A stretch of DNA of 64,000 nucleotides, taken from assembly GCA_904397815.1 (NCBI GenBank), contig CAJFOT010000103.1, forward strand, positions 1 through 64,000, in the 5' to 3' direction. The notes beneath the pieces are model-generated. The model had not been told where the DNA came from. It saw only the letters and a program-made list of their open reading frames with translations, and did not search any database. This document shows, one piece after another, positions 21,331-28,396 of the stretch; the stretch's first letter is position 1; each line of letters starts with the position of its first letter. The position numbers were made by a program, and so were the translations under genes. This DNA comes from Candidatus Paralachnospira sangeri. GTDB taxonomy: Bacteria > Bacillota > Clostridia > Lachnospirales > Lachnospiraceae.

Positions 21331-22548
21331 TCATTTATTTCCGCTGCCCAGACGGCATCTGAAGTCCTCATATCCGAAGGTCCGCAGGCATCTCAGCCGG
21401 CCATCAGGCTTCAGGACAAAGATGCCGGGCAGCGGCATCCCGTTAAAGGTGTTATTTTTGCAGGTCGTGTAGATGGCCATATCTCCAAAGAGAAGCAGGC
21501 TTCCCTCACGGAGGGGCAGATCAAAGCTGTAATCTCCGATCACATCTCCTGCCAGGCAGGTGGGCCCGCCCAGACGGAAGGTACAGGCCCTTTCCCCCGG
21601 CTCTCCCCCGCCATACAGCGGCGGCCGGTAGGGCATCTCCAGCACGTCCGGCATGTGGCAGGCAGCGCTGGCGTCCAGAACCCCAATACGTGTATCCCCG
21701 TTTTGGAGTACGTCCAGCACCCGGCAGGCCAGATAGCCCGCGTTCAGGGCACAGGCTTCTCCCGGTTCCAGATAAACCTGCACGTTCCATTTCTGCTGCA
21801 CCGTGTGAATGCACCGTTCCAGCCCTGCTATATCATAATCAGGCCGGGTAATGTGGTGGCCGCCGCCGAAATTTATCCATTTCATATGGGGCAGAATGTC
21901 CCCGAATTGTCTTTCAACTGCTTCCAGCGTGATCTCCAGCGCGTCGGAATTCTGCTCGCACAGCGTATGGAAATGCAGTCCGTCCAGCAGGCCGGTCAGT
22001 TCCGGCGTCATATTCTCTTCCCATTGGGCCCGGGTCGTCCCCAGGCGGCTGCCGGGAGCGCAGGGATCGTAAATCGGGTGCCCCTCCTGGGTGGAACATT
22101 CAGGATTGATCCGCAGCCCGATGCTTTTTCCGGCCTGTCTGGCCGCCGGCCCGAATTTTTCCAGCTGACGGGGAGAGTTAAATACAATGTGGCCGGCATA
22201 ACGGAGCAGCTCGTCAAATTCCTCCTCGCGGTACGCGCCGCAGAATACATGAACCTCTTTTCCCGGCATTTCTTCGGCTCCCAGGCGGGATTCATACAGG
22301 CCGCTGGCTTCTGTGCCGGCCAGGAAGGGAGAGAGGACCGGATAGAGATCATAGTTGGAAAAGGCTTTCTGGGCCAGCAGTATTTTGCAGGAGGTACGCC
22401 GGGATATCTCCGCCAGAATCTCGCCATTACGGCGGAGGGCGGCCTCATCGATAATGTAGCATGGTGTGGGAAGAGCGCCGAACAGTTCTTCCGGGGACCG
22501 TCCGCCCAGCCCGGCGAAGGGAGGGCGGACATCTTTTACCCCTGCCAT
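21331..22548 (-). CDS. nspC: Carboxynorspermidine/carboxyspermidine decarboxylase
   Basis: PTPCYIIDEAALRRNGEIL, ILLAQKAFSNYDLYPVLSPFLAGTEASGLYESRLG, HTLCEQNSDALEITLEAVE, NFGGGHHITRPDYD; start overlaps upstream stop (TGATG). Confidence 0.9.
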   Translation of the reverse strand: MAGVKDVRPPFAGLGGRSPEELFGALPTPCYIIDEAALRRNGEILAEISRRTSCKILLAQKAFSNYDLYPVLSPFLAGTEASGLYESRLGAEEMPGKEVHVFCGAYREEEFDELLRYAGHIVFNSPRQLEKFGPAARQAGKSIGLRINPECSTQEGHPIYDPCAPGSRLGTTRAQWEENMTPELTGLLDGLHFHTLCEQNSDALEITLEAVERQFGDILPHMKWINFGGGHHITRPDYDIAGLERCIHTVQQKWNVQVYLEPGEACALNAGYLACRVLDVLQNGDTRIGVLDASAACHMPDVLEMPYRPPLYGGGEPGERACTFRLGGPTCLAGDVIGDYSFDLPLREGSLLLFGDMAIYTTCKNNTFNGMPLPGIFVLKPDGRLRCLRTFGYEDFRCRLGSGNK

Positions 22549-23807
22549 CAGTCTACCAGAACCGGAGTCCGGTTCTCGTTTCTGGGCAGACCATATTGAT
22601 CCAGAGCATCCAGGAAGGGATCGGGATCCAGTTCTTCCACGGTATAGACACCGGGCTTGCTCCATTTGCCGGTCAGCAGCATCAGAGCGCCGCACATAGC
22701 AGGGACGCCGGTGGTGTAGCTGACAGCCTGGCTTCCCACCTCGCGGTAGCATTCCTGATGGTCGCAGACGTTATAAATATAGTAGGTTTTTTCTTTGCCG
22801 TCCTTCTTTCCGGTGAAGATACAGCCGATGTTGGTTTTGCCCTTGGTGCGGGGGCCCAGGCTGGCCGGATCAGGCAGCAGCGCTTTCAGAAACTTGATGG
22901 GAACGATCTGATGTCCCTCAAATTCAACGGGAGTGGTGGACAGCATGCCCACATTTTCCAGACAGCGCATATGGTCCAGATAACTCTGGCCGAAGGTCAT
23001 GAAGAAACGGATGCGTTTCACCTCCGGGATATTTACTGCCAGGCTTTCGATCTCCTCGTGGTGGAGCAGATACATGTCTCTGCGGCCTGCCTGATCGAAT
23101 TCATATTCCCGCTTGATGCTCATGGGCGGGATCTCCACCCAGTGCCCGTTCTCCCAGTAGCTGCCGGGGGCAGATACTTCCCGCAGATTGACCTCCGGGT
23201 TAAAATTGGTGGCGAAGGGGTAGCCATGATCGCCGCCGTTGCAGTCCAGAATATCGATAGTATCGATGGTATCGAACTCATGCTTCTTTGCGTAGGCGCA
23301 GTAAGCCTGGGTGACGCCGGGGTCAAAGCCGCAGCCCAGCAGTGCGGTCAGGCCGGCATCCTCGAATCTTTTGCGGTATGCCCACTGCCAGCTGTAATCG
23401 AAGTAGGCGGAGAATCCTGCCTCCCTGCAGCGCTTCTCGTAGACAGCGCGCCACTCCGGATCATTGGTATCCTCCGGTTCATAATTGGCAGTGTCCATAT
23501 AGTTGACGCCGCAGGCCAGGCATGCTTCCATGATGGTAAGATCCTGATAAGGCAGGGCGATGTTCATGACCAGATCCGGCTGAAAGGAGCGGATCAGGTC
23601 AATGACCTGCCCCACATCGTCGGCGTCTACCTGGGCGGTGGTGATTTTGGTTGCGGTTTTGGGCGCCAGTTCGGATGCCAGTTTATCGCATTTGGATTTG
23701 GTACGGCTTGCAATGCACAGCTCAGTAAAGACATCACTTACCTGACAGCATTTGTGGATGGCAACGGAGGCTACGCCGCCGCAGCCGATGACAAGAACTT
23801 TGCTCAT
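22548..23807 (-). CDS. Saccharopine-dehydrogenase-like carboxy(nor)spermidine dehydrogenase
   Basis: MSKVLVIGCGGVASVAIHKCCQ...CIASRTKSKCDKLA...GCGFDPGVTQAYCAYA; adjacent to nspC-like gene. Confidence 0.88.
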   Translation of the reverse strand: MSKVLVIGCGGVASVAIHKCCQVSDVFTELCIASRTKSKCDKLASELAPKTATKITTAQVDADDVGQVIDLIRSFQPDLVMNIALPYQDLTIMEACLACGVNYMDTANYEPEDTNDPEWRAVYEKRCREAGFSAYFDYSWQWAYRKRFEDAGLTALLGCGFDPGVTQAYCAYAKKHEFDTIDTIDILDCNGGDHGYPFATNFNPEVNLREVSAPGSYWENGHWVEIPPMSIKREYEFDQAGRRDMYLLHHEEIESLAVNIPEVKRIRFFMTFGQSYLDHMRCLENVGMLSTTPVEFEGHQIVPIKFLKALLPDPASLGPRTKGKTNIGCIFTGKKDGKEKTYYIYNVCDHQECYREVGSQAVSYTTGVPAMCGALMLLTGKWSKPGVYTVEELDPDPFLDALDQYGLPRNENRTPVLVD

Positions 23808-23823
23808 TTTTTGTACTCTCCTG

Positions 23824-24696
23824 TTATGAAAAAAAGTTTGACTGATACAGTGCCAGGATCAGCTCCCGCAGCACTTTGCACGCGGTTGCGGTGGATACGC
23901 CGCTTGTATCCAGCGCCGGGGCCAGTTCATTCACATCTGCCCCCACCACGCGGGCGGCGCAGACGGTACGGATGGCTGCCAGCAGCTGGTCAAAGGTGAC
24001 GCCGCCTGCCTCCGGCGTGCCGGTCCCGGGGAATACGCCGGGATCCAGGCAGTCCAGGTCGATGGTAAAATAGACAGGGATCTCCTGTTCACAAAGGGCG
24101 CGGACAGTCTCCTCCAGACCGTCAAAATGAAAGGGATGGAGCTCTGTGTGCGACCGGGCGAAGCGGAACTCCTCCCGGTCGCCGCTGCGGATGCAGAACT
24201 GGTGGATGCGCCCGTCCCCCAGCAGATCATGGCAGCGCCGCAGAACACAGGCATGACTGAGCCTGCACCCCAGGTAATCATTCCGAAGATCTGCGTGGGC
24301 GTCAAAGTGGATGATGTGAAGATCCGGGTATTTTTTTGCCGCGGCGCGGACTGCCCCCAGGGTGACCAGATGCTCTCCGCCCAGCAGCAGGGGAAACTTT
24401 TCATCCGCCAGGATTTCGGCGGCCCGGGCTTCGATATCATCCAGAGCAGATTCTGCGCTGCCGAAGCACAGCTCCATGTCTCCGCTGTCAAATACCGCGC
24501 AGTCGGTCAGATCAGCATCCTGATAAGGGCTGTAGGTTTCCAGCCCGAAACTTTCATGACGCATGGCGGACGGGCCGAAACGGGCGCCGGGGCGGAAGCT
24601 GGTGGTGGAATCAAAAGGTGCGCCGTAGAGAACGATGCGGGCAGCGGAATAATCGCTGTCACAGCCGATAAAGGTTTCAATATTTGGATGCAGCAT
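23824..24696 (-). CDS. speB: Agmatinase / ureohydrolase family
   Basis: LYGAPFDSTTSFRPGARFGPSAMR, LGGEHLVTLGAVRA, HIIHFDAHADLR, FTIDLDCLDPGVFPGTGTPEAGG. Confidence 0.9.
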   Translation of the reverse strand: MLHPNIETFIGCDSDYSAARIVLYGAPFDSTTSFRPGARFGPSAMRHESFGLETYSPYQDADLTDCAVFDSGDMELCFGSAESALDDIEARAAEILADEKFPLLLGGEHLVTLGAVRAAAKKYPDLHIIHFDAHADLRNDYLGCRLSHACVLRRCHDLLGDGRIHQFCIRSGDREEFRFARSHTELHPFHFDGLEETVRALCEQEIPVYFTIDLDCLDPGVFPGTGTPEAGGVTFDQLLAAIRTVCAARVVGADVNELAPALDTSGVSTATACKVLRELILALYQSNFFS

Positions 24697-25555
24697 TTGT
24701 CTGTTCCTCCACTTCTTCCAGCATTTCCTCCAGAAAAGCAGGCAGCCAGAAGGCTCCCACATGCAGTCTGGTGGTATAGTAACGGGTGTGCAGATTGAGC
24801 GCCATCCATGCCTCCGCGTTCAGATTGTCAATCGGGTGGTACTTTTTGCTGGCAAAGCCGAACAGCCAGTATCCTGCCGCATAGGTAGGAATGTGGGCCT
24901 GATACACCCGGCTGATGGGAAATGTGCTGACGATCCGTTTATGGCTGCGCTGCATGGCGCTGGCGTCCTCGGCGTAAAAGGGGCTGCCCTGCTGATTGAC
25001 CATAATGCCGTCTGCCCGGAGGGCGTTGTAACAGTTGCCATAGAACTCCAGGGTAAACAGTCCTTCCGAGGGGCCGAAGGGATCTGTAGAGTCCACTATG
25101 ATCAGATCATAGGCAGCTTCCCGCCGGCGGATAAATTTTAACGCGTTCTCAAAGTGGATATGAACCCGCCGGTCATCCATCCGGCAGGCGTTGCTGGGCA
25201 GATAAGTGCGGCAGGCTTCCACTACCTGGGGGTCCATCTCTACCAGGTCAATGCGCTCCACACGGTCATACCGCGTCAGCTCCCGCACCACGCCGCCGTC
25301 CCCCGCGCCGATGACCAGGATATCCCTGATCCCCTGATGGACAGCCATCGGCACATGGGTTATCATCTCATCGTAAATAAATTCATCCCGCTCTGTCAGC
25401 ATGACATTGCCGTCCAGTGTCAGAACGCGGCCAAACTCCGGCGTTTCAAAAATATCGATCTGCTGATATGCGCTTCTCCTGGAATAAAGATGCCTCGTGA
25501 CCCGCATGCTGTGTTTCACGTCCGGGGTATGAAATTCACTGAACCACATTTCCAT
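24677..25555 (-). CDS. speE: Spermidine synthase (aminopropyltransferase)
   Basis: MEMWFSEFHTPDVKHSMRVTRHLYSRRSAYQQIDIFET, VIGAGDGGVVRELTRY, DLIIVDSTDPFGPSEGLF. Confidence 0.92.
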   Translation of the reverse strand: MEMWFSEFHTPDVKHSMRVTRHLYSRRSAYQQIDIFETPEFGRVLTLDGNVMLTERDEFIYDEMITHVPMAVHQGIRDILVIGAGDGGVVRELTRYDRVERIDLVEMDPQVVEACRTYLPSNACRMDDRRVHIHFENALKFIRRREAAYDLIIVDSTDPFGPSEGLFTLEFYGNCYNALRADGIMVNQQGSPFYAEDASAMQRSHKRIVSTFPISRVYQAHIPTYAAGYWLFGFASKKYHPIDNLNAEAWMALNLHTRYYTTRLHVGAFWLPAFLEEMLEEVEEQTNAASKY

Positions 25556-25570
25556 TTATTTTTTCTCCTT

Positions 25571-27031
25571 TCACGCCAGCACATTGATCCGTTTCAGCTC
25601 AGGATCCTCCGATCCGGTCATGCTGCATCCTTTTTCCATCGCATACTGGATATGCTCCAGAATTTCAGCAGTAATGCGTTCGCCCGGAGCCAGGATGGGG
25701 ATGCCGGGCGGATAGCACATGACAAACTCGCTGCATATGTAGCCTTCGCTTTCTGCCAGCGGCAGGCTGATTTTTTCGGCGTAAAATGCCTCCTGAGGGC
25801 TGGTGACCACATCCGGTTCGATATACTCCTGGCTCAGCAGCCCGGCAGCGTCCTTCTGATAGCGGCGCCGGATCTCAGCCAGGGCGCTCACCAGCCGTTC
25901 CAGCTCCTGGGGACGGTCGCCCATGGAGAGGTAAGCCAGAATATTGCCGATATCTCCGAATTCAATCTGAATGTCATATTCGTCCCGCAGGATGTCATAT
26001 ACCTCAATTCCCGCCAGGCCGATGTCCAGGGTGTGGACGCTCAGCTTTGTGCCGTCGAAATCAAACACGGAATTTCCGTTCACCAGCTCCCGCCCAAAGG
26101 CGTAATAGCCGCCCACCGCGTTGATTTCCTGGCGGGCGTACTCGGCCATATCGGCTACCTGGTGGAATACCTCCCTGCCCCGGAGAGCCAGGTTGCGGCG
26201 GCTGATGTCCAGGCTGGACATCAGGAGATAGCTGCCGGAGGTGGTCTGGGTCAGGTTGATGATCTGCCGCACATAGCCGGCGTGGACAGCGGGGCCGACC
26301 AGCAGCAGGCTGGACTGGGTCAGGCTTCCGCCGCTTTTGTGCATGGATACGGACGCCATATCGGCGCCTGCCTCCATAGCTGATACAGGCAGCCCGCTGC
26401 TGAAATAGAAATGGGTCCCGTGGGCCTCATCGGCCAGACAGAGCATCCCGGCGTCATGGGCCATCCTTACGATCGCCCGCAGATCGCTGCAGATCCCGTA
26501 ATAGGTCGGGTTATTCACCAGAACCGCCACTGCGTTCGGGTGTTCGGCGATTGCCTTCGCCACCTGCTCCCGCTGCATGCCTAACGAGATGCCCAGCCGC
26601 TGATCCACCTCAGGATTTACATACACCGGCACCGCGCCGCACAGAACCAGCGCGTTGATGACGCTTCTGTGAACATTTCTCGGCAGGATGATCTCATCGC
26701 CGCGCTTACAGGCAGTCAGCACCATGCTCTGTACAGAGCTGGTAGTGCCGCCCACCATCAAAAAGGCATGGGCAGCGCCGAAGGCGTCAGCCGCCAGCTC
26801 CTCTGCCTCCCGGATCACAGAAACCGGATGGCACAGGTTGTCCAGCGGCTTCATGCTGTTTACATCCACTCCTACGCACTGCTGTCCCAGAAAGGCGGTC
26901 AGCTCCGGATTGCCGCGGCCCCGCTTGTGCCCCGGCACGTCAAAGGGAACGACCCGCATCTGCCGGAAGGTTTCCAGTGCCTCATAGATAGGAGCGCGGG
27001 TCTGATCTAAACGGGTTCGACTGGTTTTCAA
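25571..27031 (-). CDS. speA: Arginine decarboxylase (Orn/Lys/Arg decarboxylase, aspartate-aminotransferase-fold type)
   Basis: DVPGHKRGRGNPEL, GTTSSVQSMVLTACKRGDEIILPRNVHRS, LADEAHGTHFYF, SVSMHKSGGSLTQSSLLL; TTG start with AGGAGGG SD. Confidence 0.88.
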   Translation of the reverse strand: MKTSRTRLDQTRAPIYEALETFRQMRVVPFDVPGHKRGRGNPELTAFLGQQCVGVDVNSMKPLDNLCHPVSVIREAEELAADAFGAAHAFLMVGGTTSSVQSMVLTACKRGDEIILPRNVHRSVINALVLCGAVPVYVNPEVDQRLGISLGMQREQVAKAIAEHPNAVAVLVNNPTYYGICSDLRAIVRMAHDAGMLCLADEAHGTHFYFSSGLPVSAMEAGADMASVSMHKSGGSLTQSSLLLVGPAVHAGYVRQIINLTQTTSGSYLLMSSLDISRRNLALRGREVFHQVADMAEYARQEINAVGGYYAFGRELVNGNSVFDFDGTKLSVHTLDIGLAGIEVYDILRDEYDIQIEFGDIGNILAYLSMGDRPQELERLVSALAEIRRRYQKDAAGLLSQEYIEPDVVTSPQEAFYAEKISLPLAESEGYICSEFVMCYPPGIPILAPGERITAEILEHIQYAMEKGCSMTGSEDPELKRINVLA

Positions 27032-27049
27032 TTTTTTCCCTCCTTCTGC

Positions 27050-27093
27050 TCAACACAAAAACTGATCAACACAAAAATTGCTCAACACAAAAA
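27050..27093. repeat. Three tandem 16-bp-spaced copies of TCAACACAAAAA between terminator-like hairpin and speA RBS
   Basis: TCAACACAAAAA at 27050-27061, 27066-27077, 27082-27093. Confidence 0.9.
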
Positions 27094-27127
27094 AACGCAG
27101 GCTGTGCCGCATGCACAACTTGCGTTT
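27087..27127 (-). terminator. Intrinsic-terminator-like hairpin in the leader of the polyamine operon (possible attenuator)
   Basis: Minus strand AAACGCA-agt-TGTGC-atgcg-GCACA-gcc-TGCGTTT followed by a T run; arms 27093-27099/27121-27127 and 27103-27107/27113-27117. Confidence 0.7.
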
Positions 27128-27398
27128 GTTATCTGAAAAAATTTTCTCTTCCCTGTCCCCGTACAGACAGCTGCTGTGTGAGGATTCAGCCGTACAGCGC
27201 GGAAAGCCATGCGGGAGCCGTAAAGGCAGAGAAAAATTTAAGACTTCCAGATTGGACGGGATGATCAGAGTCTATATAGCAATCATACTTTTACTACTCT
27301 TATTGACCGTTTCACAAGTCTGCGCACAGGCGCATTTCGGTTATGAAGTAACCAACTTATAAAATTTGAGCTTCTAACTCAATCAATAAGGCTGCACA

Positions 27399-27457
27399 AA
27401 GGCCGCCGATCGGCAGTGGACCCGGCTGTCCGTATGGCCTTAACTCCATGGCGGAGT
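27399..27457 (-). ncRNA. Predicted structured leader RNA element (putative; function unknown)
   Basis: Minus strand: ACTCC-gccat-GGAGT hairpin (27457-27443) then AAGGCC/GGCCTT closing stem (27441-27399) enclosing GGAC/GTCC and GCCGATCGGC. Confidence 0.35.
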
Positions 27458-27513
27458 AGTCCGGAATAATTGCTTTGAAAAGACTCCTAAATATCCTTCC
27501 AAAAATCATAAGC

Positions 27514-27542
27514 ATCTTATCATGGCAGAAATATTTTGTCAA
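27514..27542 (-). promoter_or_regulatory. Sigma-A-type promoter TTGACA-N17-TAAGAT reading toward speA
   Basis: TGTCAA at 27537-27542 and ATCTTA at 27514-27519 on + strand, 17-bp spacer. Confidence 0.65.
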
Positions 27543-27562
27543 GGGGTTCGGGGACGGCTGCG

Positions 27563-28396
27563 TCAGGGGATAAATCTGCGGACCTGCATAAATACGACCC
27601 GCATATAGGCTCTGATCCTGATTTTGATCTGATGCATCCGGACATCGCCTTTGGTCAGGCCCAGGTTCAGCTGGTTGTAGCATTTGTCCACGAACAGCTT
27701 GTCGTCGGCGAAGATCTTGCCGATGGTTTTCAGCAGCTGGGCGGTCTCCGAGGTGGTGGAGACGCGGAAGCTGTACAGGTATTCATTGATATAGTAAACC
27801 TTGCTGACGGAGCACATCCGCAGCCAGTAATTCCAGTCCAGGGTGAACCAGAGATCCGGGTCGAAGGCGCCGATCTCCAGGGATGTGCTTTTGCGGAACA
27901 TGACATTGGAGGGCTCCGCGTTGTAATTATGGTTGCGGAAGGATCGGCGGGCCAGCTTCTTGCCGTCCCACATGCCTGAGGAACGGAAGGGCCGGCGGTT
28001 CATCACCACTTTTCCGGTTTCGTTGATGACATGGGAGCCGGAAAATACCATCCCTACCTCCGGATAGTTGTCCAGAATCTCCACTTTTTTCTGGAAATTG
28101 TCAGAGGTCAGCAGGTCGTCAGCGCACAGCAGCTGCATGTATTCGCAGGTGCCGTATTTCAGACAGTTGTTCCAGTTTCCCACCATGCCCACGTTGGTCT
28201 CGTTCTGGATCAGACGGATTCTGGGATCGTCGAAGGAACGGACGACAGAAACGGTATGGTCTGTTGACGCGTTGTCTATAATAATCAGTTCAAAATCAGG
28301 ATAGGTCTGGTTCAGGACAGACTGTATGGTCTGGGCCAGATAGGTCTCTCCATTATAGACCGGAATGCACACACTTATTTTAGGCATTTGTTTCAT
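27563..28396 (-). CDS. GT2 family glycosyltransferase
   Basis: ISVCIPVYNGETYLAQTIQSVLNQTYPDFELIIIDNASTDHT...QLLCADDLL. Confidence 0.9.
   Translation of the reverse strand: MKQMPKISVCIPVYNGETYLAQTIQSVLNQTYPDFELIIIDNASTDHTVSVVRSFDDPRIRLIQNETNVGMVGNWNNCLKYGTCEYMQLLCADDLLTSDNFQKKVEILDNYPEVGMVFSGSHVINETGKVVMNRRPFRSSGMWDGKKLARRSFRNHNYNAEPSNVMFRKSTSLEIGAFDPDLWFTLDWNYWLRMCSVSKVYYINEYLYSFRVSTTSETAQLLKTIGKIFADDKLFVDKCYNQLNLGLTKGDVRMHQIKIRIRAYMRVVFMQVRRFIP

Follow-up and report, generated by a model that had tools for sequence, protein, structure and literature searches.

The speA leader in the window (the whole 64-kb stretch of DNA analysed) raises the question of whether the RNA ahead of a polyamine operon can itself sense a polyamine and decide on transcription. 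Such riboswitches have long been expected. In the literature searched only one has been validated, a SAM-I derivative that is rare, with 13 examples (Salvail et al. 2023, PMC10853860); its authors mention numerous, mostly unpublished, attempts at finding polyamine riboswitches. Our comparison of the leader with its relatives suggests that it is probably an OFF riboswitch that attenuates transcription in response to a polyamine, with spermidine as the likeliest candidate.

The positions of the operon and of its leader are listed in Table 1. The product of the first gene matched PF01276 (E 4.6e-67, with the N-terminal 374 amino acids scanned). The minus-strand promoter claimed in the preliminary description is present, with an extended TG, and is the sole TTGACA-N17-TAAGAT match in 26900-27700, where 0.7 would be expected by chance per region; we infer that it is used. 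Between the T run of the terminator and the ribosome-binding site of speA, three tandem 16-bp repeats (CTGCTCAACACAAAAA, plus strand) were observed at 27046-27093. An AdoMet decarboxylase (PF02675) was not found in the genome of the window, which is 84% complete, despite the speE gene in the operon. Spermidine may come from the route of carboxynorspermidine dehydrogenase (CANSDH) and nspC.

Table 1. Features of the speA leader and operon, in window positions
Feature	Position	Strand	Details
Promoter	27514..27542	-	sigma-70-type, TTGACA-17-TAAGAT, extended TG; predicted start ~27507
speA leader	about 27507-27089	-	~420 nt, promoter to intrinsic terminator
P1 5' strand	27466..27486	-	GAGTC 27486-27482, GCAATTAT 27473-27466
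Conserved core RNA	27298..27462	-	model R1, 164 positions, 53 bp; 171.5 bits, E 1.7e-40
Domain 1 (P2, P3, P4)	27410..27462	-	RF02440 match, 65.1 bits, gathering score 37.2
P2	27462-27458/27422-27418	-	Domain 1
P3	27457-27453/27447-27443	-	ACTCC/GGAGT, Domain 1
P4	27439-27437/27426-27424	-	Domain 1
Domain 2	27300..27389	-	P6, P7, P8, P9, P10
P6	27389-27382/27307-27300	-	TTATTGAT/GTCAATAA; closes P7 and the P10/P8/P9 arm
P10	27364-27355/27319-27310	-	arm with P8, P9
P10 5' strand	27355..27364	-	TTTTATAAGT
Switch strand	27313..27325	-	GCGCAGACTTGTG, 3' strands of P9 and P10; in core fold and predicted antiterminator
P1 3' strand	27268..27286	-	ATGATTGC 27286-27279, GACTC 27272-27268
Antiterminator partner (predicted)	27113..27124	-	CGCAAGTTGTGC, terminator 5' arm
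Intrinsic terminator	27089..27126	-	hairpin 27126-27094, AACGCAAGTTGTGCATGCGGCACAGCCTGCGTT + T run, -18.2 kcal/mol
speA-type Orn/Lys/Arg decarboxylase	25571..27031	-	TTG start; first gene of operon
Rest of operon	21331..25555	-	ORFs assigned by sequence inspection
speE	24677-25555	-	ORF, sequence inspection
Agmatinase-like	23824-24762	-	ORF, sequence inspection
CANSDH-like	22548-23807	-	ORF, sequence inspection
nspC-like decarboxylase	21331 onward	-	ORF, sequence inspection

The conserved core and its fold

The window was scanned with Rfam/Infernal, and RF02440 (SpF59_sRNA, ldcC RNA) was the one family found in the entire 64 kb, located at the speA leader. All 54 model positions were matched by the window with E = 2e-11, above the gathering threshold. 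No other Rfam family, T-box included, matched 27000-27600 at E up to 1. The earlier remark that the leader was not recognised as a known class comes close, as Rfam contains only a 54-nt piece of it, annotated as a Streptococcus sRNA and not as a riboswitch.

When the loci of relatives were read, near-invariant sequence was seen over ~230 nt, whereas the Rfam entry covers 54 nt only. A covariance model, R1, was made from a hand-written structure on 37 diverse cores in A3, a MAFFT alignment that was not fitted to the structure. R1 matched 98/98 loci and probably extends the Rfam entry to the full length of the RNA. The anchor-based cores and the covariance model were used in place of RNAalifold, which did not retain structure on 127 sequences aligned by MAFFT and stripped of columns.

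With its closing helix the 164-nt core spans 27486-27268. P1 closes the whole RNA around domain 1 (D1), which includes the nearly invariant AUACGGACAG segment, and domain 2 (D2), and the variable hairpin P5 follows D1. Folding of 27507-27265 gave an MFE of -72 kcal/mol (z = -2.6), and P1, P6, P7, P8 and P10 are present in the MFE structure predicted from the window sequence alone. An alternative AUAAGU/ACUUUAU hairpin in D2, judged by eye, is mismatched in the window and was left out of the fold. Several relatives have a local hairpin on the 3' side, AGAGU...ACUCU, which shares sequence with the 3' strand of P1 and may be an alternative state.

The preliminary description had the first ~110 nt of the leader folding well; the conserved RNA runs on to ~27268. 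The ACTCC/GGAGT hairpin described there is P3, in which 5/5 pairs covary. The proposed AAGGCC/GGCCTT helix was not recovered, as in P4 the GGC within AAGGCC has GCC 27426-27424 as its partner and GGCCTT 27404-27399 is not conserved. An upstream GGAGT had been suggested as a possible competitor for ACTCC, but its GAGTC (27486-27482) pairs with GACTC 27272-27268 and closes the RNA. The pairing that competes is instead the one of 27325-27313 with the terminator arm 27124-27113, which had been overlooked.

The fold is backed by covariation. In the A4 alignment 95.1% of the cells are paired and both sides change in 34/53 pairs, which was matched by 0/500 shuffles, and the signal collapses when the strands slide by one column. 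A3 agrees with these results. In a tree-aware null (home-made and R-scape-like, with the inferred substitutions re-scattered along a FastTree tree) the significant pairs lay within the model in 7/7 (A4) and 6/6 (A3) cases, in P2, P3 and P5, and none lay elsewhere. The 5' strand of P2 was picked by complementarity and A3 begins at that strand, so the support for P2, whose covariation is present in A3 too, is in part circular, which does not apply to P3, P5 or the switch. P4 changes from GGC/GCC to GCC/GGC in 13 relatives, and double changes also occur in P7, P8 and P9. Few were observed in P6 and P10 because both are too conserved for power, and these two helices are therefore supported by the single-sequence fold, rare covariants and complementarity. 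P1 lies outside R1 and was judged by duplex energies, which were -14.6 kcal/mol for the native and -7.3 kcal/mol for the shuffled strands, with 107/114 loci in agreement. The leader thus has a conserved aptamer-like fold backed by covariation, as is generally expected of a riboswitch.

Terminator and predicted antiterminator

The terminator-like hairpin with a U tract that had been described before speA is an intrinsic terminator, ~60 nt ahead of the speA start at 27031, and one is detectable in 119/125 leaders. The 3' strand of P10, together with the P9 strand next to it, is complementary to the 5' arm of this terminator. For the window, the duplex of GCGCAGACUUGUG (27325-27313) with CGCAAGUUGUGC (27124-27113) has a predicted energy of -18.5 kcal/mol, compared to -18.2 kcal/mol for the terminator. 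Over the leaders, the switch/arm duplex has -15.4 kcal/mol, compared to -7.2 kcal/mol with shuffled arms (116/119, p 4e-21). When the arms of 21 representatives with <80% similarity were permuted, 0/20,000 permutations matched the native pairing, and the same was found for the variable part alone. In the loci L088 and L106 all three partners, P10, the switch strand and the terminator arm, have changed in concert (AUAG or AUGG / CUGU / ACAG). Since the terminator arm and the 3' strand of P10 are complementary and covary, their duplex is taken as an antiterminator. The leader thus has an expression platform that the comparison shows to be mutually exclusive with the aptamer-like core, another general property of riboswitches, and the terminator arm mimics the 5' strand of P10, likewise as in known attenuating riboswitches. 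Control in cis by the terminator and antiterminator is very probable.

This anatomy predicts an OFF switch, where the folded sensor goes together with the terminator and with silent polyamine genes. The shared strand is part of the conserved core, so that stabilising the core should favour termination. A point against this reading is that the terminated state is favoured thermodynamically (MFE -136.9 versus -122.5), so that the ON state must be kinetic. In the proposed mechanism, the nascent RNA would fold P1 around D1, with P2-P4 and AUACGGACAG, and D2, in which P6 encloses P7 and the arm of P10, P8 and P9. Plentiful polyamine would stabilise this fold and lock the 3' strand of P10 (ACUUGUGAAA), the terminator would form and RNA polymerase would stop ahead of speA. 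When polyamine is scarce, GCGCAGACUUGUG would pair with CGCAAGUUGUGC, the terminator would not form and the operon would be transcribed.

An inverted repeat, AAATTTTTCTCT / AGAGAAAATTTTTT, occupies the spacer between the sensor and the terminator at 27240-27134. It folds as a long stem and may bring the switch strand near the terminator.

Attenuation by a ribosome stalled on a leader peptide was considered, as short ORFs occur in some leaders and control by translation had been offered in the preliminary description as an option. Open frames across the core are, however, rare in all three frames, and base pairs are conserved, not codons. ORFs with a Shine-Dalgarno sequence over the switch were found in 3/115 loci, compared to 6 in shuffled sequence. 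With no conserved short ORF covering the switch, the leader peptide was rejected as extremely improbable.

Gene linkage and the likely ligand

R1 was found in 48/391 genomes of the class and in 34/223 sampled genera, and RF02440 matches were obtained in 7/61 near relatives, 41/391 class genomes and 18/399 phylum genomes. A pattern scan drew chance matches in Streptomyces and others, which were filtered out by demanding further conserved blocks. The RNA is present in Clostridia, Bacilli and Negativicutes; its hosts include Faecalibacterium prausnitzii, Blautia wexlerae, Clostridium porci, Acidaminococcus, Phascolarctobacterium, Paenibacillus, Bacillus, Neobacillus and Streptococcus entericus, where the copy is divergent (29.8 bits).

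The first gene downstream was assigned at the 109 loci with a scannable first ORF. It encodes an Orn/Lys/Arg decarboxylase in 51 loci, PotA in 29, the AdoMet decarboxylase SpeD in 20 and CANSDH, which has a saccharopine-dehydrogenase fold, in 8; CANSDH comes first in the Paenibacillus-type loci. Thus 108/109 RNAs stand directly before a speA-type, potA, speD or CANSDH gene. At the remaining locus a P-II-like gene lies between the RNA and potA and is the sole non-polyamine first gene. The RNA is therefore a leader of metabolically related genes in diverse bacteria, which is again general for riboswitches.

Direct sensing of a polyamine by the leader RNA is likely, as judged from the covarying fold, the linkage to polyamine genes and the terminator with its covarying antiterminator; the ligand-controlled attenuator of the preliminary description has gained support from the same three observations. 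The same attenuator might be worked by a regulatory protein that recognises the folded RNA, as in the PyrR and ribosomal-protein leaders, and a covarying switch with this gene linkage would suit any sensor of the polyamine state. Protein recognition is nevertheless improbable, as the core of ~165 nt has dozens of near-invariant bases, many of them outside helices, and is larger and more elaborate than the usual protein sites. Also, the loci that were read showed no conserved regulator gene linked to the RNA.

If the RNA senses a polyamine directly, spermidine is favoured with moderate confidence as the main ligand because the speA, speD, CANSDH/nspC and potABCD routes all lead to its synthesis or import. 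A direct riboswitch for putrescine, agmatine, cadaverine, arginine, lysine or SAM would also agree with parts of the pathway: agmatine (or cadaverine) is the product of SpeA, putrescine is transported by PotABCD along with spermidine, and SAM is the substrate of SpeD. None of these compounds alone, however, suits all four gene groups. CANSDH and speD lead specifically to spermidine, and a shut-off by their own substrates would be unexpected. A ligand other than spermidine is therefore doubtful.

Relation to known RNAs and variant forms

In pneumococcus, F59 was mapped to 869510-869591 between SP0915 and SP0916, on the strand of SP0916 (PMC3395615), which is a speA-type arginine decarboxylase gene (PMC7531197). 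A 327-nt form, M7/srn235/Spd_sr49, covers 869478-869804 and is kept in a candidate sRNA list of 2025 (PMC12323649). This cataloguing would fit a trans-acting sRNA that is merely encoded upstream of speA. Such an sRNA is very unlikely, since F59 lies on the same strand ahead of speA (SP0915 < F59 > SP0916 >), the relatives have polyamine operons at 109/109 loci with four different first genes, and the antiterminator and the terminator beside it covary. Once terminated, a leader of this kind would resemble an sRNA of ~0.3 kb. Homology through RF02440 suggests that F59/srn235/Spd_sr49 is most plausibly the leader of SP0916 in its terminated form. RF02440 models D1 alone, 54 nt, as an sRNA gene; in the window this piece is the first part of a ~230-nt polyamine-operon leader, to which D2, the closing helix, the terminator and the antiterminator belong, and unlike the annotated RNA the present one also precedes potA, speD and CANSDH genes.

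The SAM-I-derived spermidine riboswitch resembles the present RNA in that it stands ahead of ldcC/speA, speB, speD and speE-type genes and turns them off by terminator/antiterminator exchange, the direction predicted here. It has the SAM-I architecture, whereas the present RNA has a fold of its own with a different helix order and is far more widespread. A SAM-I variant was rejected: neither the window nor any of 8 relatives matched RF00162 at E up to 0.5-1, and the four-way-junction architecture was not seen. The speF, odc1, potE and potC motifs are likewise RNA elements near polyamine genes; they belong to other genes and hosts and are set apart by their published descriptions (PMC8632094, PMC11477304, PMC2864571), odc1 and potE by description only. 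No report of the present RNA as a riboswitch was found in the literature searched; the main text of a 50-genome survey describes no polyamine motif, and a 26-genome survey has only other motifs. A description elsewhere is possible because subscription papers, preprints and supplements were outside the search.

The evidence leans towards a new and widespread riboswitch class for a polyamine (spermidine), which has a large aptamer of its own in two domains and would control the synthesis and uptake of polyamines across Firmicutes, among them the gut commensals Faecalibacterium and Blautia and, with the F59 leader, pneumococcus. If this is true, many Firmicutes would have a direct RNA sensor of the polyamine level before speA, speD, CANSDH and potABCD, the polyamine output of gut bacteria could be tested at a single switch, and a pneumococcal sRNA of unknown role would become a cis-regulator of arginine decarboxylase.

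Some copies deviate from the common form. D1 is kept and most of D2 is missing in two Lachnospiraceae MAGs (L050:3899-3975 and L068:517-593) and at a contig end (L097), with scores of 43-45 bits. The L050 variant still stands before speA and has a terminator, and both L050 and L068 have a terminator arm, GATGTT, that could base-pair with AACATC close to where the short RNA ends. These variants could be a clue to the ligand-binding domain, or decaying copies. One copy (63.9 bits) stands ahead of speD-speA-speE in a MAG that carries the label Spirochaetes, which may reflect horizontal transfer or mis-binning. At one potA locus (L142) ~150 nt are inserted in the P8 region, after the 5' strand of P10, and the RNA is otherwise intact. 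Four further potA loci (L028, L029, L032, L035) have an extra hairpin ahead of P5, and a short 3' hairpin replaces the usual AGUAGUAAAAGU...UUGCUAUAUAG segment; by these sequence features they form a potA-linked subtype.
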